Shown: piece after piece, positions 2,272 through 34,615 of the stretch
How the letters are laid out: each line of letters begins with the position of its first letter
Numbering within the stretch: the stretch's first letter is position 1
Assembly: GCA_000827205.1 (NCBI GenBank)
Contig: KN832560.1
Location: 1,307,442 to 1,371,441 of the forward strand
DNA length: 64,000 nucleotides
Origin: Plicaturopsis crispa FD-325 SS-3
Taxonomy: Eukaryota > Basidiomycota > Agaricomycetes > Amylocorticiales > Amylocorticiaceae
Reading direction: 5' to 3'
Made by a program: the position numbers and the translations under genes
Notes under the pieces: model-generated
What the model was told of the DNA's origin: nothing
Seen by the model: only the letters and a program-made list of their open reading frames with translations
Database searches by the model: none

Positions 2272-2703
2272 TTACAGTCCACACACCGACTTGTCCACTT
2301 GTGCCACGTCCGCCTGCACGATCCCGCGTCGCCTCCCAGCCCATTCGTCAATGCATTCATCGCCTCCAGTGACAAGTTGAACCCATCCTCGGCATGGTCG
2401 ATTGCCAGCACATTGATGCTCGTCTGGTTCCCGCTGTCGCTCGTGTACGAGCTTCCAGCACGTCCCACAGCTCGCCGAGTTCCATCCCCCAATTGCTGCA
2501 GCGCCGCCGATGTATGGGTCCGAGGGGAGCCCTCCGAACGTGTGGTACTTGGACTCGAGGCCGTGCGAGCCGTCAGAGCACGCGACGGTGTCGAGCGAGG
2601 TCGACGCGACGTCATAGGTGCCGTCCCAGGATATCTGGTCGGCGACTGCGAAGGCGGGGAGGAGGAACACGGCGAGGGCAGCGGCGAAAAATGTGGATTT
2701 CAT
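2272..2703 (-). CDS. Cerato-platanin family protein with a frame-shifted central segment
   Basis: Small secreted protein of the cerato-platanin family, which in fungi are cell-wall-associated or secreted proteins with expansin-like folds that act in growth and can elicit plant responses. The open frame encodes 143 residues: a signal peptide (about 1-21), a normal N-terminal half through the CGTCWKL motif (residues 79-85), an altered segment (86-126) and the normal C-terminal 17 residues ending SVCGL. Against the intact copy at 14585-15019, this gene lacks two bases near 2449 and one base near 2324. The two deletions cancel, so the frame stays open but about 41 residues are read in another frame, replacing the conserved core and adding three cysteines. 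It may be a decayed gene that is still open, a sequencing artefact, or a new protein. The family assignment is firm; function is doubtful. Confidence 0.75.
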   Translation of the reverse strand: MKSTFFAAALAVFLLPAFAVADQISWDGTYDVASTSLDTVACSDGSHGLESKYHTFGGLPSDPYIGGAAAIGGWNSASCGTCWKLVHERQREPDEHQCAGNRPCRGWVQLVTGGDECIDEWAGRRRGIVQADVAQVDKSVCGL

Positions 2704-2810: not shown

Positions 2811-2866
2811 GCATTACAGTCATCGCATATACCAATTATTTGCGGCTTGGGCATCGTCGAGCGATT

Positions 2867-3045
2867 TGGTAAAACCCGTCGTCGGTCTCGTCTATGGCGA
2901 GTACGTCGAAGTTGGTCTTATTCCCGCCAGCGCCCGAGTACGTGAGCTTCCAGCACGTCTAGCAGCTTGGGGAATCGTACTCTGTGATACGGACGCGCTA
3001 CCGATGTTCGGTAACGTGGGCAGCCAGTCGTAGGTGGTCGCGTCA
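2867..3045 (-). pseudogene. Cerato-platanin gene fragment (relic)
   Basis: This stretch aligns with the interior of the third cerato-platanin gene (about 16296-16480) at roughly 80-85% identity by eye, with small indels. It begins abruptly at the edge of the segmental duplication, lacks both gene ends, and has a TAG stop where the glycine codon of the conserved CGTC motif should be. Weak similarity may continue to about 3090. It is therefore a truncated, decayed copy of a cerato-platanin different from its immediate neighbour. Confidence 0.8.
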
Positions 3046-5814: not shown

Positions 5815-7303
5815 TCACCAGCATGGTCCTTCCACGCGCTCAGCATCCCGCTGCACGCCGTCGTGATCGTGTACGTCCTCGCCGAATGGCAGCCGCCGCG
5901 TCGCCATTCCGTAGAGCACAACGCCGCAGGCCCACGCATCGGTTTCGCGGCCGTCGTACGGCTGCCCAGGTATCACCAGCTCCGGCGCAGCATACGACTC
6001 GCTCCCACACCGAGTCGTAAGCGGTGCAGCCGGGTCGATGAACCGCGCAAACTCAAAGTCGGTGAGCTTGATTAGCGGGTACGGCGGCGGCGGGACGGGG
6101 TCGGAAGGTGCCGTCGTGAGCAAGATGTCTGTCGCTAATCGTCAGGTAGGGGTAATATAGCAGACAAAGGGAGGGGACGCACTCTCGAGCTTGATGTCGC
6201 GGTGGACGAGCCCGACGCCGTGCATCCAGGCGACGGCCTTGCAGATCTCGCTCCACATGCGGCGAACCGTTTGCTCGCCGCGGTTCGCGTGCACAGCGTC
6301 GGCGTTGACGAGGTCGAAGAGCTCGCTGCCGGGCAGGTGCTCCGGGACAAGGACATGGTGCGTAGGCGATGTGAATGCAGCGAGGTGAGCGACAATCATT
6401 GGATGCGAAATGTACTGCAGACGAAAAAATCAGCACAGTGGAAAAAGGGCATCTTTAGATCAGGGACTCACCCGCAGCACCTCGCCGACCTCGCGCACGA
6501 AGCTGACGCGGGTGCGGTTGTCTGATCGCGAGGTCATCTTCACCGCTACTAACCGACCGTTACCGCTTTCGGTGCGGACGACAACGCTCTCGCAGGGGAC
6601 GTCGCCGTCACGCTCGTACACGTACACGCGCGTCCGACGCTCGCATTGCGCTCGAGGCCGGGATTCCTCTCCTTGGTGACGGGCTGCGTCCCGTCGAGCG
6701 GCGTGACGGTCTTGCGGCGCATGCGTCTCGGGCGGGAGGGCAGCGCGTCGGCGGGCGCGAGCCAGACGGCGGAGAAGGTGCCCTGGCCGAGCACGCGGAT
6801 GAGCTTCAATGTGAGTGGTGGATCCGGATCGGCGATGACGGTGCCTGGTCCCAGGACGAACGCAGGCTTCACATCAGGTGGACGCGGCGTGATCTCGGAC
6901 TCGCTTGGGGGGACCGGAGGCGTCGATCGATGGGGGATATGGGCGAGGGTGTGCGGTCGAGATCGGGGGCGACTTCGCCGTGGCGAAGAGACGTGTGTCG
7001 AGAGGGGAAGAGGCGTGAAAGGAGATGGGGTGGTGAGCGGGATCGAGAGGCCGGACGAGAGGGGTTGTATATACTTGGCGGCAGGGTGGGGCGGGTGTCG
7101 ATAGGCGAGGGTATAGCGAAGAAATCGGTGTCCAGCGAGGGCATCTTTCGCGGAGGCGGGCTTGTCTCGTACGAGGACGAGAAGAATGCGTCCGTCTTGG
7201 AAGACGTAGGCGGGGAAGTCGGCGGGGATTCATTGAAAAAGGTGGATGCGAGCGACGAGCTGCTGTGATTACTCAGCTGTGAGCGTGCCGACGAGGAGGA
7301 CAC
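5815..7303 (-). pseudogene. Serine/threonine protein kinase, apparently broken
   Basis: A Ser/Thr kinase of a type common in agaricomycetes, with a long Ser/Pro-rich N-terminus. Visible landmarks in order: glycine loop GQGTFSAVWLA (near 6770), VAVK lysine (near 6540), HRDIKLEN catalytic loop split by a 53-bp intron (near 6190), DFE in place of the usual DFG (near 6040), and GSESYAAPEL with a DAWACGVVLY segment. Problems: the reading frame changes near poly-C runs at about 6890-6930 and again between the glycine loop and VAVK with no intron to explain it; the C-lobe stops soon after subdomain IX, just before the tandem repeat; and the first open segment has no ATG until 7144, being in frame with the stop codon of the gene upstream. 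It may be a pseudogene, or its frame breaks may be assembly errors. Confidence 0.6.
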
Positions 7304-7315
7304 ACCATTTTTCCG

Positions 7316-8592
7316 TCAATTTGCGCCGATCGCTGTTTCATGAGAATGCAGCACGAACGCGGCTGGCATGTCGATGCCAAATCTCTGCACGATATACGCG
7401 TCATCTCGGGCCAGACCCCCAAAATATATGTTACGGGCTAGCCAATCGAGCCGCCTCATAGCGGGCGAATGTTTGAGCAAGGATGAGGCGGGTTCTCCGT
7501 GGGCATCTTTCCGGGTGCGATTGGCTCGGTACGCGACTGTGCAGGCCGTGATTTCGAGCGGTGAAAGGGCCTGAACCTCCCCCTCGAGGACGGGAATGTA
7601 CAGGTCCGAGTAAATTTCATCAAGGACGTCGCCGCATGTGATGCCAATGCTGGCATCTTCTGGGTTGACCTGAATGACCCACGGGAGAGACCTACACACG
7701 ATATAGATCTTGCGTGTTCGGGGAAATGTTGCAGGGGACCGCAGGTACTCCGACCAGGCCTTTGCAGACACTTCGTGGGAGCAGCGCGCATACGACGAGG
7801 GAAATACTATCTCCCAGTCGATGCGATTTTGCTGCTGCGCCTCACCAGAAGGCGGGCATAGGAGAGGATTCAAGTCCAGACTTGTATCGACATGGTGAAG
7901 GAGTATCGGTTTGAGAACTGGACCATCTACACGTTCATTCAGTGACAAGGTTCGCATGTTATAGTGAGTTAGAGGGACGAACGACCCGGTCCAGCTAACC
8001 AATGATCGACGATGGCATCCTTGAATGCATCCCGAGAGTGATCCGGCTGATGTGTCCAAGGCCGTAGTAGAGGTGAGCCGGATCGCCGAATAGGCAGTTT
8101 CGCGACAGGTCGGGTGGTCCTCCCTGAAGGAAGCAGCCGTTGCTCATGTGTGTAGTCGAAGAGGGACGCTGATCTCCCGCCGATGGGAGAAGCAGGACCT
8201 CGGACTGCGATGAGATATGTCTCGAAACCTTGTCGCCCTACATTAATCTCATGCCGAAATGGCCGCTTGTCATGCGTCATCAGGTCGTTTTCGTCTGTTG
8301 TGGCACTGGTAGAAACTACCGGCTCATTATCGTGCCTTCTTAGGTGGGATGGTCTGGGGAGAGGGACCGACTTTGTGATGCGCGCGTGAGGACCATAGTA
8401 ATCTTCCCGTGACGTTTGCGGGCGCGCGAGCTTTTCGAACCGGGAGGTGATGTCCGAGATGGGGTCTGCTTGACGTTCAGGCTGCTCTCGCAAATGCCGT
8501 GCGGGGTCTGGGATAGTAGTGCGAAGGATGGATGGGCCCGGCTCCGCTTGTCGATGATTTGGCCGAGACGAGCTAGAGGCGAGGGTACTCAT
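7316..8592 (-). CDS. DUF6699-like protein, copy A
   Basis: Member of a fungal family of unknown function that I recognise as DUF6699. Two exons (8592-7986 and 7926-7316) join in frame to give 405 residues. The N-terminal half is a low-complexity tail with two short conserved motifs, PGPSILR and RFEKLARPQTSREDYYGP. The C-terminal half is the folded domain, with SYARCSH, SPATFPR, a CGDVLDEIY motif and a terminal FGGLxRDDAY motif. No signal peptide or membrane segment is seen. The phase-1 intron sits at the tail-domain junction, as in all five copies here. The stop codon lies 13 bp from the first open codon of the kinase downstream. Function and cellular location are unknown. Confidence 0.8.
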
Positions 8593-9260
8593 GGTCAGAA
8601 TAGGTTTTCGATGATAGCAATGGCAATGGATTGCTGGGCTGATGCGTATCAACGACGTGATATGCCAAGGTTGATTGTGGGCTGTCAAAAGGCATTCTGA
8701 ACATAGGTCTTCCTTGAGGATCCTAGATTTAAACATACGTACGTGTTGCAGAAATTGACCGACGTGATATCGAACCCTGTGCATATATGTGCCAGAACGT
8801 GACGGAATGCTGTTTGACGAATGCGAGGGTTTGAAGCAGGGCGTTGGATGAAAGGTCGGCTGCATATGACTTTTAACCGTTGGGTGACTACAAAAGGCGC
8901 GATAGGCACAAAAGGCTTGCCTGGATGTTCCGGAAGGACGTGAGAGGGACGGAAGCATAATAATAGTATAGATGCAAAGTAATCCAGACAATAGCAGTGA
9001 GTAGCGTATGCGAATTGGAGTCGACCCAAAGCAGTCGGTAACAAATAACCTTGCACAATAAGCGGCAGCCGAAAAATCGTCAGTCTGCCTTATGCCATAA
9101 TGAGGAGATGTTCACGAGTGCTTACCTAGAGCACAATATCGGTACTGAGACGACAGTTTCGACAGCCTCAAGGAATGTGTAGCCAGGACAGTGTCGCACT
9201 GTGAGCGTCAATCAAGCGTCAATTGATCGGACCGCGAAATCACAATTGGGACTCGGACCC
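8593..9260 (-). repeat. 5' flank of copy A
   Basis: Related to the flanks of copies B and C and to the orphan flank at 1-453. The 'gatcggaccgcgaaatca' box is at 9225-9242. It probably holds the promoter of copy A. The remaining bases to 9440 hold nothing recognisable. Confidence 0.6.
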
Positions 9261-9440
9261 TTTTGCAAAGTGCATATTAGCCTGATGACGGACTGTCTAT
9301 ATGAAACAAAACTGAACAACAAGTACCAGCTAGAATTGCTATGCCAGACATCAAAACGCGCGACAGCTTTGTCTTCTGGCCCAGGACAGCGCGCAGTGAG
9401 AAGTGACAAAAGCTGGGGGTACACATCGAGGACGTACCGC

Positions 9441-10742
9441 TTATGCTGCCTTGATTGCGGTGTCTTGTGAGTGCAAGACAAAGGCCCCAGGCATAGCGAC
9501 ACTAAATCTCTCTGCGATATATGCGTCGTCACGACTAAGTCCGCCGAAGAAAGTTTTGTGCGAGAGCCAATCTAGTCTCCTCATGGCAGCCGAATGTCTC
9601 ATCAATGAGACGGTAGGCTCTCCATGCTCATCTCGCCTTGTCCGATTGTGGTGATACGCTGCATCAAAAGCGTTCAAGTCGGATGGAGGCAGCACTCGAA
9701 TTTCCTCACGGACCACCCTCACATATAGATACGAGTAGATTTCATCAAGAACGTCGCCACACGTTATGCCCACGTTGAAATCCTCGGGATTGATGTGGAT
9801 GATCCAGGGGAATGATCGTGATACGATGAATATTTTGCGTAGTCGAGGAAAGGTGGCGGGAGAGTGAAGGTGTTCGGACCAAGTCTTCTCAGACACAGTG
9901 TGTGAGCAGCGCGCGTAGGATGAAGGAAACAGCATTTCCCAGTTGACGCGATGTGAGAATGTTTTATCTAATAGAGGTGGGCAGAGCAGGGGGTTCAGTT
10001 CTGGACATGCGTCCACATGCGGGAGCAGTAATGTTGGAAGGACTGGTCCATCTGCCAGACGAAGTCTCAATCGATCATGCCCCGTGCAGAAACAGAAACA
10101 GAACATACAATTACTCCCGGTGAGCCAATGATTGACAACGACGTCTCTAAATAGATCGCGAGAGTGGTCTGGTTGATCCTGCCGTGGGCGTCTCAGTGGT
10201 GTGACAGATCGGCGACGCGGCCTACGGGAGGCGGGCGGTGGTTTCTTCTCTGAAGGAAAGGTTGCTGCCTTCCTATACACAACGTATTCGGGGAGGACCC
10301 CAGACGCCTTCGAGTTTGAAGCAACCAGTTCTCTGTTTATAAGTGAATTAGGATAAGGTCCCACCAAACCTGGACCAAAAACGGGTACGAATTGTTGCTG
10401 GTAGAGGAACGGCAGCGTGTCCTGCGCAATTGCATCGATGCGACGACCTGCTACATCGCGTTGGCTCGTCAACAGACCGTTGTGTCGTACTAGGTCGGGG
10501 ATGCCACCTGGCTGTGAGGGCCTAGCGAGATGGTCGTGGTGCTCCGAGCGAGCCCCGGGCCCATAACAGTCCTCCAGTGACATCTGTGGGCGTCCAAGCT
10601 TTTCAAAGCGAGCATTGACCTCTACGAGGGCGTCCTCTTTCTCATTCGAAGCATCTCGCGGACTCAATGGAGAGTTCGTGCGTACCGAGCGAAGGATTGT
10701 GGGGTCTGGCTCTGCTCGGGGGCTGGTGGGAGCGGTGCTCAT
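9441..10742 (-). CDS. DUF6699-like protein, copy B
   Basis: Two exons (10742-10109 and 10051-9441) give 414 residues. The intron is free of stops and in frame, so the gene can also be read straight through; the splice sites match those of the paralogues. The start at 10742 was chosen because it corresponds to the starts of copies A, C, D and E, although the frame is open further upstream. It has the PEY-rich tail, the RFEKLGRPQMSLEDCYGP motif and the full domain with CGDVLDEIYSYLY. It is most like copy D, which lies 21 kb away in opposite orientation. Function unknown. Confidence 0.8.
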   Translation of the reverse strand: MSTAPTSPRAEPDPTILRSVRTNSPLSPRDASNEKEDALVEVNARFEKLGRPQMSLEDCYGPGARSEHHDHLARPSQPGGIPDLVRHNGLLTSQRDVAGRRIDAIAQDTLPFLYQQQFVPVFGPGLVGPYPNSLINRELVASNSKASGVLPEYVVYRKAATFPSEKKPPPASRRPRRRSVTPLRRPRQDQPDHSRDLFRDVVVNHWLTGSNCMFCFCFCTGHDRLRLRLADGPVLPTLLLPHVDACPELNPLLCPPLLDKTFSHRVNWEMLFPSSYARCSHTVSEKTWSEHLHSPATFPRLRKIFIVSRSFPWIIHINPEDFNVGITCGDVLDEIYSYLYVRVVREEIRVLPPSDLNAFDAAYHHNRTRRDEHGEPTVSLMRHSAAMRRLDWLSHKTFFGGLSRDDAYIAERFSVAMPGAFVLHSQDTAIKAA

Positions 10743-11480
10743 CGCGGAAGTTGTAAGTCCACTGTCGGGGCTAGAAAATGACGAATGTGTCGAGTGAGGC
10801 CCAGCCGATGATGGCTGCGAGATGCATCTTAGTGTCAACGAAGTATGGCTAGTAAGTTGGAACGCACATGCGCAGCAACGCGATATCCGGGATAGCACAA
10901 AGAATGCAGCTATGTATTCCAGAGATATTCGATGTTAGCAAGATATTTCTGAGGGTTCGAGCGATGAGGGGGATTGCAGATGGTATTGAATGGGAAGATT
11001 TGAATGACTGCTCAGCGTTATTGCTCAGTATTTGATGCCGGCGACTGCGATCGTAAAGACAAAAGACTTGCCTGGGAGCTTGAGAAGATGCTACAGAGAT
11101 AAATGGAGTGCGAATTCGAGAGCAGTCGCAACAATAGCACTGAGCAGAACGATGCATGCTAGTCATTCAAAGCAAGTCCGCGACAACTACACCTGTAGCA
11201 GCGACTTCAGCTAACATGATTATAATTATTCTTCCACTTTTGTATCGTGGGCACCGGATACTCACATAGTCCTAGAGAAGATGCTGAGGCAAGTCCTAGT
11301 GTCGACCATGACATCGATAGAACGAGAGCAAGTAACAGCAGTGCCGCCGCACGGTGAGCGTCAGTTGATCGGACCGCGAAATCACAATTGCGACTCGGAT
11401 CCTTTGGCATGCCGTGCCTCAGAGGCTCTTCTTCATCCTGACTTCGTCAGCTAGGTAACAAGCATACTGAAGCTTGAAAG
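10743..11480 (-). repeat. 5' flank of copy B
   Basis: Shares long similarity with the flanks of copies C and D and the orphan flank at 1-453; the conserved box is at about 11367-11384. Similarity to the copy C flank continues to about 11480. The following 340 bp to copy C show nothing recognisable. Confidence 0.7.
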
Positions 11481-11817
11481 ACATTCGCGACCAATCTGAT
11501 ATGCTCATGGTTCGTACACGTCTCGACTGTCTTTACCGAGCCCAGGACAGGCATCAAAGTTCAAACCCGTTGATATTTTGCATCGTTCACGCGTTCAGCT
11601 CGAGGAGACTCGTTTGAACATACTTAGCATTGCGAGTAACAGCGCTACTGTCGACTGTGTATTGCAACTAGCAGGCACGCAATGAGACCAACAGTGGCGA
11701 GCGATCATGCAAGTATGGTAGCGGATTGGCACTCGACGGCAGTCGCATAGGCATTGCACATCCTTGAGATGAGATTATCAGTATTGCGGAAAGACGATGC
11801 CGATGTTGACGCACCAC

Positions 11818-13124
11818 TCAAGACCCCTCGAACGGCAGCTCTTGAGAGTGCAAGATAAACGTCGCAGGTAGGTCGGTGCCAAATCTATGTGCGACGTACG
11901 CATTATCACGGCTTAGCCCTCCAAAAAAGGTCTTACGAGCAAGCCAATCGACTCTCCTCATAGTAGCTGAGCGGTGCAATAAAGAGGCAGCCGGCTCTCC
12001 GTGCGCGTCTTTCCTCGAGCGATTGCGCACGTATGCTGCATGGAATGCCTCCAGATCGGTCGAGGGGAGGTCCCGAATATCTTTTTCGCGCACAGAGAGA
12101 TATAAATACGTGTAGATTGCATCGAGGACATCGCCACAGGTCACGCCGATGTCGACGTTTCCGGGGCTGACATTGATGAACCACGGAAAAGATTTCGATA
12201 TGACGAAGATTTTGCGCAAGCGCGGAGATGTAGCAGGAGCACGAAGGTATTCGGACCAAGTCTTGTCAGACACTTTGTGCGAGCACCGGGCGTATGACGG
12301 GCGGAACACTATCTCCCATTGAACGCAGTGTTGCTGCTGAGACGACGAAGGCGGGATAAGCAGAGGGTTTAACTCTAGGCAAGCCTCAATGTGGGGTAGC
12401 ATCATGGGCTGCAAAACTGGGCCACCTGGGAAAGGTAGTGTCAGTTGGATCGTGCCGCTAGCAGAATTGAAAATATAAACGAACAACCATTGCTAGCTAG
12501 CCAGAGACCGGCAACAGCATCCGTGAACACGTCGCGAGAGAAATCCGGCTGATTGCGCTGAGGTCGTCTGAGAGGTGGAACGGATTGTTGATGGGGTCGA
12601 GGGACAGAACGCGAGAGGGTCCGCTCCGAAGAGAATGCTACTGCCTTCTTATGTGCGACGTTCTCGGGGCGGACAGCAGGGGGCATCGGAGCAAAAGCAA
12701 TAGGGCCTCCCTTGGTAAGAGATGGAGGAGGAGGGCCTGCTGAAGTCAGGCCGGACAAGGGCACGATTTCTTCTTGATATACGGACGGCCTTTTGTTTCG
12801 TTCGTCCGCGTCGCTGCGACGAGCCGCCACGTCGCGTTGGCTATTCAAAAGTCTGGCATGTCTCACGGAGTCGTCGGAGAGTCCCGCGGGCTGGGCATAG
12901 TCGGAGCTGTCCGTGCATACCCCAGGCCCATAATAATCCTCCCGTGACATGCGCGGGCGTCCGAGTTTTTCGAAGCGAGCATTGAGATCTGCAAGGGGGT
13001 CATCTCCCTTTTCCGGAGCATCTCGTGGACGTAGAGGAGAATTCGTGCGTGCCAGGCGGAGGATCGAAGGGCCTGGCTCTGCTTTTCTATGATTCGGCTG
13101 GAGACTGACGGCTGCGCTGCTCAT
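11818..13124 (-). CDS. DUF6699-like protein, copy C
   Basis: Two exons (13124-12488 and 12425-11818) give 414 residues; a second ATG one codon upstream (13127) is possible. The tail has QPNHR followed by PGPSILR and RFEKLGRPRMSREDYYGP, and the domain carries SYARCSH, SPATSPR, CGDVLDAIYTYLY and FGGLSRDNAY. It is intact and has the same phase-1 intron as the other copies. It lies in tandem with A and B on the minus strand, spaced by the repeated flanks, which points to unequal crossing-over as the origin. Function unknown. Confidence 0.8.
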
Positions 13125-13860
13125 CATAAAGGTTGTGAATTTGACAGCGACTTTTGAGGCCGTGAACCGATTGGGTACGTTTGTTGAAGGCGCAGTCGAA
13201 TGCCAGCTGTCAAACACGTTTTAACCGATGCAGTGTGTCAGGATATGGGTCGGAACGTACCTATACAGCGGCAAGGTAGCGGGCTAATGGATTCTGGATA
13301 GATAGAGACGACAGCACGATGCTTGAGAGGCTCGAGCTATCTGGGGGCTCTGAAGGAGAAGGTGTCTAGGTCTGTTCGACATTATGGATCAGTATTTCAT
13401 ATCGGCGCCTGCGAACGGTAATACAAAAGACTTGCCTGAGAGCTTTGGAAGATATGGCAGAGATAATAGGAGTGTGAATAGGATCAATCACAACAATAGC
13501 ACTGAGCAGAACGATGTATGCTGATTCAGAGCGAGTCTGTAGACTCTGTACTAACAAATGCACCTGCAATATCAGCGACTTCAAACAAAATCATCAGCCT
13601 TCCTACCATAAGTACCGGGAACTCACCCGATCCCGGACAAAGTTCAAGGAAAGCCTAGCGTCGACCATGATATCGATAGACCAGAGCAAGTATAAGTAGC
13701 AGCAGTACTTGTCGTCGCAGTGCAGAGTAAGCGTCAGTGTGGATCGGACCGCGAAATCAGACGCGGATCCTTTCTTTCGCACTGTATGTCACAGTGTCCT
13801 TCTTCATCTTGACTTCATCTGCTATGTTCTGTCTGGACTTAGGATGCATACTCTACCTAT
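13125..13860 (-). repeat. 5' flank of copy C
   Basis: Closest to the orphan flank at 1-453, with near-identical runs around 13370-13410. The conserved box lies at about 13743-13759. Here the flank leads almost directly into the cerato-platanin segment, unlike the left copy. Confidence 0.75.
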
Positions 13861-13950
13861 ATAGACTATGCGGGCTCGGGTGGGACCGTACATCCGTTCA
13901 TCGACTATTCTACGCTAGCCAGAACCAGGTATCATAGTACGGGACTTCTA

Positions 13951-14133
13951 TGTCGGAAATTTCCGGACCGGATTATAATGCATTATAATTTAAGCGTCCG
14001 ATTCAAACCCCGTTAGAACGCGTTATAATCCCGTTACAATCCCATTAGAACGCCATTAGAACCGGATTACAATGCATTGTAATGGGATTATAATCGGACT
14101 CTTAAATTTGAACGGACTCCGAAATTTCCGACA
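13951..14133. mobile_element. MITE, 183 bp, with TA target duplication
   Basis: The element is bounded by TA at 13949-13950 and 14134-14135 and has 13-bp perfect terminal inverted repeats reading TGTCGGAAATTTC inward. Inner blocks (TTTAAGCGTCCGATT against TTTAAGAGTCCGATT) are also inverted, and several ATTATAATGC-like short palindromes fill the interior. It has no coding capacity. The duplicated segment at 1811-1812 lacks it, giving a natural empty site. TA duplication suggests mobilisation by a Tc1/mariner-type transposase. Confidence 0.85.
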
Positions 14134-14584
14134 TACGACCGGGACGCGACCCAAATTCGTTACCGTAGGAGCTACCTGGTGCTACGATCGATACGGGGAT
14201 GGCAAGCTGGTAAACGAAAAATTGCGGCTCGATGAGAGATTAGAGCTGGCGATGGCGATGGCCGTGTTAAGTTCGTGGTGCGTCGATTAGCATTTCTACA
14301 ACGATGTTAACGCTGACTTCAAGTCCGAGTAGCCTCATGCCGTCATGCATACGATGCATACATTTTGGGCACAGACAACACAAAAAATTGCGAACAAGTC
14401 GAAGTGCGGTGTCCAAATTGTCCATCAGAAAAGTCCAAGTCCAAGTCCGAAACGACCCTACTTATACACCCATATACACCGTTAACTCTCGTCCGCCGCT
14501 ATTACTCTGTGACGAGACGCAGATCAGTGGCTGAGATATGCGAAAATCGAATGAAACTTGCCTTGACATCGTCGTGACCTGCGT

Positions 14585-15019
14585 TTACAGTCCACACACC
14601 GACTTGTCCACCTGCGCCACGTCCGCCTGCACAATCCCCGCGTCGCCTCCCAGCCCATTCGTCAGTGCATTCATCGCCTCCAGTGACAGGTTGAACCCAA
14701 CCTCGGCATGGTCGATCGCTAGCACATTGATGCTCGTCTGGTTCCCGCTGTCGCTCGTGTACGTGAGCTTCCAGCACGTCCCACAGCTCGCCGAGTTCCA
14801 TCCCCCAATTGCTGCAGCGCCGCCGATGTATGGGAATGAGGGGAGCCCTCCGAACGTGTGGTACTTTGACTCGAGGCCGTGCGAGCCGTCAGAGCACGCG
14901 ACGGTGTCGAGCGAGGTCGACGCGACGTCATAGGTGCCGTCCCAGGATATCTGATCGGCAACTGCGAAGGCAGGGAGGAGGAACGCGGCGAGGGCAGCGG
15001 CGAAAAATGTGGATTTCAT
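14585..15019 (-). CDS. Cerato-platanin family protein, copy 2 (intact)
   Basis: A 144-residue, intronless gene for a secreted cerato-platanin. It has a hydrophobic signal peptide (about 1-21), the QISWDGTYD start of the mature protein, the four family cysteines (one in VACSDG, two in SCGTCW, one in SVCGL) and the conserved INVLAID and LEAMNALTNG cores. These proteins act in the cell wall or outside the cell. The gene is the intact counterpart of copy 1 and shares its promoter. Confidence 0.95.
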   Translation of the reverse strand: MKSTFFAAALAAFLLPAFAVADQISWDGTYDVASTSLDTVACSDGSHGLESKYHTFGGLPSFPYIGGAAAIGGWNSASCGTCWKLTYTSDSGNQTSINVLAIDHAEVGFNLSLEAMNALTNGLGGDAGIVQADVAQVDKSVCGL

Positions 15020-15117
15020 GATGATCTCGTGAATAGACTTGGTGAGTACGATACTGTGATCTGGGTAAGGGGAGAGCTGACGACGAGTCGATAACGAACA
15101 GGACTTGAATGTACGAG

Positions 15118-15127
15118 CCTTTATAGA
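15118..15127 (-). promoter_or_regulatory. TATA box of cerato-platanin copy 2
   Basis: TCTATAAAGG on the minus strand, about 100 bp upstream of the start codon, in the same place as in copy 1. Confidence 0.6.
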
Positions 15128-15171
15128 GCACTACGGTCATCGCATATACCAGTTATTCGCGGCTTGGGCAT

Positions 15172-16199
15172 CGCTTCTCCCATCTTTCTCATGGACGATC
15201 ACCAGGCCGCTGTACACATCGGACACAGCGATGCGAAGACTAGGCTTCAAGGTCAGACTGCCGTTAGTGAAACGGTCATATGAGTCCGGGCGGGGATGGT
15301 TTGTCAGCGCATCGCTCTGCGTACAGACCGCTGAAACCCGTTTTTGCAGAACTTGGACGCCTGGATGGGCTTGGCCGACCGCATTCGAGGCTGTCATACG
15401 CAGACTATTCAATTTCCAGCCGTATGGCCATTGTTCTCGGTCAATACGGAGGTCATTCGACTCGCCGTCGCAGGCGGTGCACACACCATGTGGAGGAACA
15501 AGGTTGCGTCCACGATGCATCGACCGTGGGCCCGAACGTCGAAGGTGGGGTAGGAAGGCCGACATTGACGCGGTGTCGGACGTAATCCGTGCAGTGTACT
15601 TCGGATGTACCCACCGTATGTGCACCCAAACTTCCCCACAGCGTTGTCGAGCCTTCCTTGCCGGCGTCTGATCCGAGTACTTGAAGTTTCACTTAGAGCC
15701 CTGGTAAGCATTCGCCATTTACCCAACTTACACCATCAACGACAGAGGAGCTCATTGAGACGTCACAGTAGCAAATACGTAGGTGGAGATCAGCCGTGGC
15801 ACAATTCCAGCGCTCAACCTTGCCATGTCCGCGGCGATACGGCAGAAACTCGGCGTATTCGATCCTGATTCTTCGCCAGTACCACTGGCCTACGCATTCC
15901 TAGAATTTTAGCTGAGGGGCCAGTGGTTTGATCTTACGAGACTCTATGCATGCGAAACCAGATGCAAGGGACATTTCCTCCAAGTCCATTCGCTACACAC
16001 AAAATACAAGCAACGTAAGTCTTCCCAACAGTACTACTTCGTGTCCACCAATATTCGACCCCTTATCCTTACCATTGTTCTTCGCAGGGGTCATCAATAG
16101 TCGCCACTGCGGGGCGCTGTAAACGGCACATCGTTAGTTATCCCCCGCTGCACACGCAATATAGAAATACCAACCACCTTCGCGCTACGGTGATGATCT
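15172..16199. other. No gene recognised
   Basis: Overlapping open frames occur on both strands (the longest 188 codons) without recognisable motifs or credible exon structure. I see nothing I can name. Confidence 0.4.
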
Positions 16200-16625
16200 T
16201 CACATCCCGCACACCGACTTGTCGACCTGCGCCGCATCCGCCTGCACTATGCCCAAATTTCCACCCTTCCCGTTCGTCAGCGCATTCATCGCCTCGAGCG
16301 AGAGGTTAAACCCGTCGTCGGTCTCGTCTATGGCGAGCACGTTGATGCTCGTCTTGTTCCCGCCCGCGCCCGAGTACGTGAGCTTCCAGCACGTCCCGCA
16401 GCTCGGGGAGTCGTACTCCGTGATGACGGACGCGCCGCCGATGTACGGGAAGTTGGGCAGCGAGTTGTAGGTGGTGTAATAGGGCTCGAGGACGCCAGAG
16501 CAGATGACGGTGTCGAGGGACTCCGACCCGTTGTCGTAAATGCTGTCCCACGACACCTGAACAGCGGTGGCGAATGTGGGGAGGACGGCGAGAGCGAATG
16601 CAACTGCGGAGGATGTGAATTTCAT
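16200..16625 (-). CDS. Cerato-platanin family protein, copy 3
   Basis: A 141-residue intronless gene. The start at 16625 gives a standard signal peptide (MKFTSSAV..., cleavage near residue 20). The mature part has QVSWDSIYDN, four cysteines (VICSG, SCGTCW, SVCGM), INVLAID and LEAMNALTNG. It is clearly diverged from copies 1 and 2 and lies outside the duplicated segment, so it is an older paralogue. The relic at 2867-3045 derives from this type. The frame is open upstream of 16625, but the longer version would bury the signal peptide. Confidence 0.95.
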   Translation of the reverse strand: MKFTSSAVAFALAVLPTFATAVQVSWDSIYDNGSESLDTVICSGVLEPYYTTYNSLPNFPYIGGASVITEYDSPSCGTCWKLTYSGAGGNKTSINVLAIDETDDGFNLSLEAMNALTNGKGGNLGIVQADAAQVDKSVCGM

Positions 16626-30899: not shown

Positions 30900-31474
30900 A
30901 CTTGCACTCGTATATCGACATCATGGTCGACGCTAGGACTTTCCTCGACCCCTTCTCTAGGATTAGGTGAGTATCCGCTGTCCAGGGTACATGGTGGAAG
31001 ACTAATTATGTTGGCTGAAGTCGCTGATATAGGTGTATTTGTTACGGACTTGCTTTGAATTAGCGGCCATCGTTTTGCTCAGTGCTATTGTTGTGACTGC
31101 TTTCGAATTCGCACCCATTTATCTCTGTATCATCTTCTGAAGCTCTCAGGCAAGTCTTTTGTGTTTCCGATCGTAGTCGACGACATCAAATACTGAGCAA
31201 CGACATTGAGTAGTCGTACAAGTCTTCTCATTCAACACCATCTGTAATCCCCCGCATCGCTCGAACCTCCAAAGTATCCTGCTACTGTCGTTGTATATCT
31301 GGGCCACGTAGCTGCATCCACCCTGCTATCTCGGATATCTTGTTGCTGCACAGGTGCGTTCCGACACATTAACCAAGCTTCGTCGACACTGAGGTACCTT
31401 TCACAGCTATCGTCGACTGTGTTTCATTCGAGAAACCAGCCTTTATTGTCTACAGTAGACTTACAGCCTCAGCG
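30900..31474 (+). repeat. 5' flank of DUF6699-like copy D
   Basis: Reverse-complement relative of the flanks of copies A-C, recognisable from the segment around 'ggtcgacgctaggact' to 'catcaaatactgagcaacg'. The 'gatcggaccgcgaaatca' box of the other flanks is not seen here. The 490 bp between this and the MCP1-like gene hold nothing I can name. Confidence 0.65.
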
Positions 31475-32792
31475 ATGAGCAGCGCTCCCGCCGACCCCCC
31501 TCAGCCAAACCATCGACGAGGAGAGCCAGGCCCCTCGATCCTTCGCTCGACACGCACGAACTCTCTACTGGATCCAGGAGATGCTTCGAATGAGGGAGAA
31601 GACACCGTCGCAGAGGTTAATGCTCGCTTTGAAAAGCTTGGACGCCCGCGAAAGTCACTAGAGGATTATTACGGACCCGGGGCACGCTCGGAGCATTCCG
31701 ACGATCTCCCTAGGCCCTCACGGCTAGAAGGCAGCTCCGGCAAGCTCGTACAAGACAACACGTTGACGAGCCAACGCGACATGGCGGCTCATCGAAGCGA
31801 TGCAACTTTGCAGGGTGCATTGCCGTTCCTCTATCAGCAACAATTCGTACCCGTTTTTGGTCCCGGTTTGAGCCCGTATTCTCTTCCGTTCATAAACGGC
31901 GAAATGATTACTTCGGCTTCGATACCGCCTGGGGCTCTCCCCGAATACATCGTTTACAGGAAGGCTGTAACGCTCCCTCAAGAACAGAAACCGTCGCCTC
32001 CCGTCCGCAGACCTTGTCGCCGATCCATTCCACCTTTAAAACGCCCACGGCAGGACCAACCGGATCACTTTCTCGATGTATTCAGAGATGCCGTCATGGA
32101 TCACTGGCTAACTGGGAGCAATCGTTCGTCCCCTTTCTTTTTCTACGCGTAGCGTGATTCATTGGATCCTACCTATGTCAGATGGACCAGTCCTTCAGCC
32201 ATTATTGCTGCCTCATGTGGAAGCATGCCTGGAGCTGAACCCCCTGCTTAGCCCACCTTCACCGGATGAAACACCCCAACATCGCGTCAACTGGGAAATG
32301 TTATTTCCGTCATCATATGCGCGCTGCTCGCACACTGTGTCTGAGGAGACCTGGTCCGAACACCTCTATTCCCCGGCTACCTTTCCGCGACTGCGCACAA
32401 TCTTTATCATATCGCGATCTTTTCCCTGGATCATCGATGTCAACCCCGAAGATGTCAACATCGGCGTAACGTGTGGCGACGTCCTCGATGAAATCTACTC
32501 GTACCTGCATGTCAAGGTGGTCCGCGAAGAGATTCGGGCTCTTCCTTCATCAGATTTGAGCGCTTTCAATGCTGCGTATCAAAAAAATCGTGCGAGGCGA
32601 GATGAGCATGGAGAACCTGCCATCTCCTTGCTGAGACGTTCGGCTGCCATGAGGAGACTAGATTGGCTTTCCCGCAAAACTTTTTTCGGCGGACTGGATC
32701 GCGATGACGCGTATATCTCAGAGAGATTCGGTGTAGCCTTCCCCGCGACGTTTGTCTTGCATCCACGAGAGACCGCCGTCAAGGCAGCTTGA
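31475..32792 (+). CDS. DUF6699-like protein, copy D
   Basis: Two exons (31475-32123 and 32182-32792) give 419 residues. The tail has PNHR, PGPSILRSTRTNS, RFEKLGRPRKSLEDYYGP and a LPFLYQQQFVPVFGPG stretch shared closely with copy B; the domain has SYARCSH, SPATFPR, CGDVLDEIYSYLH and FGGLDRDDAY. It is intact, with the same phase-1 intron. Together with its flank it looks like an inverted duplicate of a B-type cassette moved 21 kb. Function unknown. Confidence 0.8.
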
Positions 32793-32959
32793 GCAAGACG
32801 TCACCAACATTCACTCTTAGCATTTTTCGATACCCACGCGCAATCCTTGACTAGGAAACACTGTCGCCCGTTTCTTTGTCCTTGGCTTAGTACTTGATAT
32901 CGCTAGCTCGTGCTTGTTCCTCGGAATCCGTAGTGTCCTTGGTGCTATCTGCATCAACT

Positions 32960-33195
32960 TGAGAACACGTACATACCTTGTACTGGTGATTGTAGATGAA
33001 ATACAACGGCCCCAGGCTTTGTAGTACGAAGCACGTCGACATACTAGGAGACCCTTGTACAATTTCGACGTCGACGGTCGGATACAAGTGTCGAATACAA
33101 GGGATGGTGCCCCGCGCGCCAACGGGCTGCAGCGGCGCAGCTCAAGTTGAAGTACTGGAGACTCACTTTGTCTTCAGCCTTCAGCTTCAATCAAT
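32960..33195 (+). repeat. Direct repeat, left copy (stranded promoter-like segment)
   Basis: Matches 34895-35160 in the same orientation, including runs such as 'agcacgtcgacata' and 'acccttgtacaatttcgacg'. In the right copy this sequence ends just before the start codon of the S10 peptidase; here no S10 coding sequence follows. Confidence 0.7.
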
Positions 33196-33290
33196 CATCC
33201 GTGAATCTGTGGCAGCATAATACACAATCCTACGCCACTACTTATGAGGGAAAGTTCATATCTGTGTCGTATTGAGGGAAGACACGTATA

Positions 33291-34615
33291 CTATACTATG
33301 ATATCGATTGGCACGGCATCCGCATCCTGCGACAGCAGAACAAAGGTTGCAGGCATAGCACTATCGAATCGCTCCTTCACGTATGCGTCGTCAGGCTCGA
33401 GCCCGCCAAAAATAGTGTTACGAGCAAACCAATCGACTCTCCGCATCTCATCGGAGTATTCGAGCAAAGTTGACGCAGGTTCTCCATGCTCGTCTCTCTG
33501 GCTGCGGTTGGTTCTATAGGCTGCCTTGAAAGTGTCCACCTCCGAGGGGGACAACTCTGCCAGCTCTTCGTCCAGCACTGCGTCGTATAAGTACGAGAAG
33601 ATCTCGTCGAGGACGTCCCCGCACGTCACACCGGCTTTGGTGTCTTCGGCATTCACATGGATCGTCCATGGAAAAGATTTCGAGGTGAGGAACATCTTGC
33701 GTAGTCGGGGGAAGGTAGCCGGCGAATGAAGAAGATCCGACCACGCCTCTTCAGACACATCCCGGGAACAGCGTGCATAGGAGGGCAGATATATCATGTT
33801 CCATTTGACACGATGCGACGGTGAAGTGTCGTCGACAGAGGGTGGGCAAAGGAGGGGGTTGAGCACCGGACGGGCATCAACGAGAGGGAGAGTCCAGGGA
33901 GTAAGAACCGGTGCATCTGAGACGACATGTTCAATAATCAGCGTGCATGCAGCAACAAGCTCGGTCACGTACAGCCACTGCCAACAAGCCAATGAGTTAC
34001 TAAGATATCCTTGAACGCGTCCTGAGAGTAATCTGACTGCCGTCTCCGAGGTCGTTGAAGTGGCTTGCCTAAGTATCTTGCAGTTTTAGCGATGGCGACT
34101 GGAAGGTATCTGTTTGTAGAGACGGACACCGCACCAGATGCGAAATACTGAGGACGGGGTTTAGACTGCGGTGATCCAGAGAACATGGATGTTCCTTTCA
34201 TCGGGGGAGGAGGGGGGCGACCTGCAATAGCGGAACGTGCAACAGGCCCTGGTGGTTGCTGGTGTACAAACGGCCGATGTTCGTCCCTGACTGGACCGTG
34301 GCGACGGCCTACGACGACATCCCGCTCAGCTGCTAGGACATTGTCGTTTGGAAGGGACTGGCCAGTCGGGTATGATAGCTCTGGCAAAGGATCCGACTTC
34401 CCTGCCTTGGGCCCATAGTAATCTTCGCGCGACGTCCGTGGACGCCCGAGTGTTTTCGAGCGAGCAGTGTTGCTCAATGCAGGATCACCGTTGCGTTCCG
34501 GATCATCTCGTGCGCGCCGAGAAAGCTCGGATGTCGAGGTTGGCACCCGGAGGATCGATCGACCTGGTATTGCCGTGCGATGGTTCGGCTGGGGCGGATG
34601 GGCAGCGCTGCTCAT
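33291..34615 (-). CDS. DUF6699-like protein, copy E (divergent)
   Basis: Two exons (34615-33973 and 33916-33291) give 422 residues. The tail keeps QPNHR, PGRSILR and LGRPRTSREDYYGP but is otherwise diverged. The domain has SYARCSR, SPATFPR, CGDVLDEIFSYLY and FGGLEPDDAY. Its C-terminus (VPIDIIV) differs from the others. It keeps the common phase-1 intron but not the cassette flank, and it lies between two direct repeats. It is the most distant copy in this window. Function unknown. Confidence 0.8.

Follow-up and report, generated by a model that had tools for sequence, protein, structure and literature searches.

Does an open reading frame that survives two frameshifts belong to a gene still at work, to a gene only recently lost, or to an intact gene misread during sequencing and assembly? 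The question is raised by CP1, a cerato-platanin gene copy on the minus strand at positions 2272-2703 of the window (the whole stretch of 64,000 nucleotides analyzed here). Its open frame runs for 143 codons and a stop, and alignment to an intact paralogue, CP2 (14585-15019, minus strand, 144 codons), reveals two gaps that shift the frame. A preliminary description of the locus offered three readings: a young pseudogene, an assembly error, and a new secreted protein. The evidence assembled below gives the best support to the first and leaves the second a lesser but real chance; the third gains no positive support, the substitutions in the altered segment fitting the old frame.

The paralogy of CP1 and CP2 is certain (96% identity in a DNA search). 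When 1812-2856 and 14135-15173 are aligned globally, the CP1 gaps fall at 2448 (two bases) and 2322 (one base), 126 bases apart and in agreement with the losses first described near 2449 and 2324. The single missing base falls in a short run of one nucleotide, where 2322-2324 are equivalent placements. The coding parts show no other indel events, and over their 432 aligned columns they differ by 16 substitutions (3.7%), 12 of which are transitions. Translation agrees with what had been said of the product: the frame stays open for all 143 codons, the last 17 residues are identical to those of CP2, and residues 1-85 match as well, save for A12V and F62D. Between these parts, residues 86-126 are read from an alternate frame (2322-2448, minus strand, five substitutions relative to CP2), which brings in additional cysteines at 98, 104, and 117.

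Searching the 33.2-Mb genome with PF07249, where counts are lower bounds, yields five matches at four loci, all on contig C7: CP1 (two matches, one in each frame), CP2, CP3 (16200-16625, minus strand, 141 codons), and CP4 (beyond the left edge of the window, about 74 kb away). A DNA search of the genome with CP1 returns the same four loci. Across the segment the three intact paralogues, CP2, CP3, and CP4, all keep to the normal frame. The old-frame piece of CP1 scores 35.2 bits to PF07249 taken alone, so a cerato-platanin can still be recognized in the segment's old frame.

The absence of a stop codon from the shifted segment has a simple explanation. The preliminary description expected a stop to be the commoner outcome of random decay, and for a gene of this codon make-up the expectation is borne out: synonymous-codon shuffles of CP2 (61% G+C) leave the segment open in CP1's alternate frame in 1379 of 5000 trials (28%), and none of the 5000 leaves the other alternate frame open. 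The expectation does not carry over to the actual sequence, whose sister gene is open in the same alternate frame. In CP2, that frame meets stops only at indices 29 and 42 and is open from codon 44 onward to the gene end; 61 of its 104 possible 41-codon stretches are free of stops. The missing stop in CP1 therefore needs no selection, and the surprise at it is removed. This openness belongs to the CP1/CP2 pair and not to the whole family (the homologous segment, in the same alternate frame, has one stop in CP3, at index 105, and two in CP4, at indices 105 and 121), and the ancestor of CP1 and CP2 probably had it already.

The substitutions that separate the two copies indicate which frame selection has acted on. 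Read in the old frame over the whole coding sequence, 12 of the 16 differences are silent and 4 are changing (dS 0.122, dN 0.012, dN/dS 0.10). The flanks diverge by 12.9% downstream and 9.8% upstream, or 0.132 when pooled and corrected; dS is near this value, so the silent sites behave as neutral DNA while the changing sites are constrained. Gene conversion homogenizing the coding region alone is likewise not needed, since the coding dS is near the divergence of the flanks. CP1 has no substitution relative to CP2 over 2407-2518, and a short patch of conversion or of mixed reads may lie there. Read in the old frame, four of the five differences in the shifted segment are silent and one is changing; read in the new frame, one is silent and four are changing. 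Polarizing with CP3 and CP4 assigns the single residue change of the old frame (codon 107) to CP2; among the other four differences, one is derived in CP1, one is probably derived in CP2, and two are not assignable. The substitution pattern against CP2 gives no sign of selection on CP1's new segment.

The only old-frame residue change assigned to the CP1 branch is F62D, three adjacent base differences outside the shifted segment (2519-2521, minus strand), in which two changing differences adjoin a silent one; the three are perhaps a single event. The position is a conserved one, occupied by F in all three intact paralogues and in four of five solved cerato-platanins, the fifth being gapped there. 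Had the segment's four differences other than codon 107 arisen without constraint, the chance of seeing no residue change among them would be 0.004, or 0.015 if three are counted, values that are too small because they assume equal mutation rates and transitions (12 of the 16) are more often silent. The unconstrained part of the CP1 branch is at most its last 22-39% when the whole coding sequence is used (95% upper bounds under the various assumptions used), and at most 47-63% from the shifted segment alone; late substitutions are too few to show a constraint-free pattern after the lesion. The substitution pattern shows that CP1 behaved as an ordinary cerato-platanin gene for the greater part of its existence.

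Damage is not confined to CP1. Beside it, at 2852-3038 on the minus strand, lies a CP3-like cerato-platanin remnant that has lost both ends, contains a stop in frame, and shows three indel events. It is 86% identical to 16287-16475, inside CP3, with 23 differences in 186 aligned columns (7, 5, and 11 at codon positions 1, 2, and 3). At 2852-2856 a junction joins the upstream DNA of CP1 to this remnant: two BLAST blocks abut there (1812-2856 with 14135-15173, and 2852-3038 with 16287-16475), about 1.1 kb of the sister block (15174-16286) is absent, and past roughly 153 bases upstream of CP1 the aligned sequence is unlike the sister block. Most simply, block 1 would have suffered a deletion that truncated the neighboring gene, sparing about 153 bases of CP1's original upstream DNA. 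A TATAAA motif stands at -105 in CP1 and at -106 in CP2, and to judge from it the core promoter of CP1 is not obviously broken. On the other side of CP1 is an assembly gap of 717 N (1028-1744), the only N run in the window; its end lies 528 bases short of the CP1 frame, and the distances to the two CP1 gaps are 578 and 704 bases. F62D, the remnant, and this assembly gap are additions to the preliminary description.

The duplicated block reaches beyond the left edge of the window, positions -1757 to 445 matching 11581-13759 at 77%. Its divergence is uneven: a pair of genes with the DUF6699 domain within it has a dS of 0.92 versus 0.12 for the cerato-platanin pair, and the stretch 22-445 differs by 8-14%. 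By this contrast the right part of the block is younger, which suggests a later, shorter duplication or a conversion, and the dating given above for CP1 holds only for this younger right part.

The surroundings contain further repeats and relatives. DUF6699 (PF20415) genes and their relatives cluster at 7316-13127 and 30900-33925, and the genome holds at least 27 PF20415 matches, 11 of them on contig C7 and 2 of the 27 with internal stops. Two consecutive minus-strand frames in the first cluster, 12441-13127 and 11818-12405, match one longer frame at 9441-10742, and are perhaps divided by an intron instead of a break. The CP2 block alone (as far as the CP1 block is sequenced) carries, at 13950-14135, an insert about 185 bases long whose ends are inverted; a DNA search of the genome finds it once, and it matches itself on the reverse strand and looks like the remnant of a hairpin-type transposon. 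Another duplicate of 1.2 kb, 92% identical and with its copies about 15 kb apart (window -8941 to -7705 and 6087-7300), flanks the same region.

What CP1 would encode can be predicted by comparison with its relatives. It matches PF07249 over residues 24-143 with 77.3 bits (cut-off 24.4), versus 136.6 bits for CP2, whose best solved relative is Epl1 (3m3g, E 1.9e-37). CP1 scores below CP2 for every solved chain; of its alignments to five solved cerato-platanins, two end at residues 86-87, and three extend to 114, 141, and 143. The start of the protein is signal-peptide-like by eye from the translation. Cerato-platanins as a rule have four conserved cysteines forming two disulfides, in the description given by PMC4024134; CP1 keeps these (C42, C79, C82, and C141) among a total of seven, disulfides being predicted only. 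The new 41 residues have no Pfam match at E up to 1, which disposes of a known Pfam domain in the segment. Lost from CP1 are the conserved residues from T86 to G125 that are invariant in CP2-CP4, D103 included. By hand count, D103 of CP2 aligns with the aspartate at chain residue 86 of 2kqa, which is D77 of the Ceratocystis cerato-platanin, so that CP1 lacks the conserved second half together with the D77 equivalent. The mutation D77A in the Ceratocystis protein abolished its paper-fragmenting activity and strongly reduced elicitor responses, according to PMC5444802. Single-sequence AlphaFold models, weak evidence when made without an alignment and poor for both proteins, give CP2 a pLDDT of 47.7 and pTM of 0.45 with strands at 82-89, 94-100, and 129-137, and CP1 a pLDDT of 35.0 and pTM of 0.17 with no helix or strand. 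The predicted CP1 protein most likely has no cerato-platanin activity, and if made at all it should misfold.

We consider it probable that CP1 is a young pseudogene, a recently broken duplicate. A stretch with two neighboring cerato-platanin genes would have been duplicated about 12 kb away, and CP1, as its substitutions show, was then kept under purifying selection in its normal frame for most of its existence. Its neighbor was reduced to a remnant, the 1.1 kb or so between them presumably having been deleted in block 1. Late on, probably within the last 22-39% of its life, CP1 would have acquired F62D and two small deletions; these sum to three in a place where the alternate frame lacked stops, and the frame would so have stayed open. 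CP1 is read as broken because the selection visible is on the old frame, because of F62D, because a decayed gene lies beside it in the same block, and because invariant residues have been replaced; measured against the intact paralogue, its disabling lesions are the frame-shifted conserved core and F62D. Some observations count the other way. Two coding indels are slightly many for this timing, since the brief interval after the loss of constraint should yield 0.32-0.56 of them and the probability of two or more is 0.04-0.11. A restored frame without stops is also what a functional compensated pair should show, and the intact TATAAA, a Pfam match that passes the cut-off over 24-143, and the three of five solved matches that reach into the segment would all seem to speak against a pseudogene.

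A less likely but tenable explanation is that CP1 is intact and that the gaps, perhaps with the changes at 2519-2521, reflect poor contig-end sequence in duplicated DNA, whether through assembly or base calling. The closeness of the window's sole N run fits this account, as does old-frame purifying selection that looks unbroken, with no residue change in the segment assigned to CP1; the indel count, a little high for the time available, points the same way. A survey of compensatory frameshift pairs in vertebrates and insects offers a further caution, in that six of its 624 candidate genes were accepted after all filters, one of which was presence in more than one species, as its report describes them (PMC8935012, 2022). 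An error would, however, have to consist of two independent mistakes that happen to sum to three. The density of indels in the gene is not above that of the flanks (2 in 432 versus 4 in 602), the flank indels of the CP1/CP2 pair are likewise small (1, 1, 5, and 6 bases), and the adjoining remnant shows that real decay has taken place in the block.

Two other accounts take the gaps to be real, and both seem very improbable. The compensated pair might have made an expressed and selected seven-cysteine variant: the frame is open, the start is signal-peptide-like, the four conserved cysteines are joined by three new ones, TATAAA is retained, and the Pfam score is over the cut-off. Pairs with transcript support are known, for example in RAB36, where a 2-base deletion is followed by a 1-base deletion 99 nucleotides away, in the account of PMC8935012. 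The segment's substitutions nevertheless track the old frame, and four of the five would alter the new protein; F62D adds a change at a conserved residue; the protein has lost conserved barrel residues along with its D77 equivalent; and the new segment has neither a Pfam match nor (a weak point) a predicted fold. It is hardly more plausible that the deletions, in one step or two, gave an expressed secreted protein whose new core has been caught before selection could shape its frame, and we would put as little weight on the form such a protein might take, with a new cysteine-bearing core of 41 residues set between the N-terminal half and the tail of a cerato-platanin. Alternatively, the sequenced strain might carry a defective, gapped allele while other strains have an intact CP1. 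A recent loss in an otherwise selected gene does resemble a null that is still polymorphic, but the neighboring remnant suggests that the block is of less importance, and we rate such an allele a long shot.

If CP1 is a broken duplicate, its importance lies almost wholly in annotation: because it passes the Pfam cut-off, it would probably be entered by an automatic pipeline as an extra secreted, cysteine-rich cerato-platanin. It illustrates clearly, on a small scale, that an open frame taken by itself can mislead, because the sister gene already carries the long open alternate frame. Should the protein be expressed, CP1 would represent a very young protein novelty created by frameshift in a secreted family. 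Among the open-access papers listed, judged by titles and the openings of abstracts, we found no report of a frame-shifted cerato-platanin or of a compensated frameshift in a fungus.

Set beside other cerato-platanins (PF07249), CP1 is alike in its small size, CGTC motif, four cysteines, N-terminal half, and last 17 residues, and differs in the unrelated, frame-shifted 86-126, the three added cysteines, and F62D. It resembles ordinary decay of duplicate genes in its late lesions, its partly lost neighbor, and the intact sister genes elsewhere, and differs in having so far no premature stop. CP1 also carries what defines a compensatory pair (pCFM): its two indels, each of 1-2 bases, lie close together on one branch only and between them bring the reading back into frame. 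In the survey of such pairs, as it describes them, most candidates, nearly all of them single-species, miss the high-confidence set, and four of the six accepted pairs combine a two-base with a one-base deletion (PMC8935012). CP1 follows RAB36, RASSF4, and Wds in having the two-base deletion and then, downstream, the one-base deletion, in the same order. Its 126 bases are longer than the 7-99 spanned by the six, and it differs from the pairs described there in lying in a duplicate beside a decayed gene and in being known here from one genome's sequence. The CP1 pair would thus be a further candidate compensated frameshift in a decaying duplicate, of an ordinary kind in a neat form.
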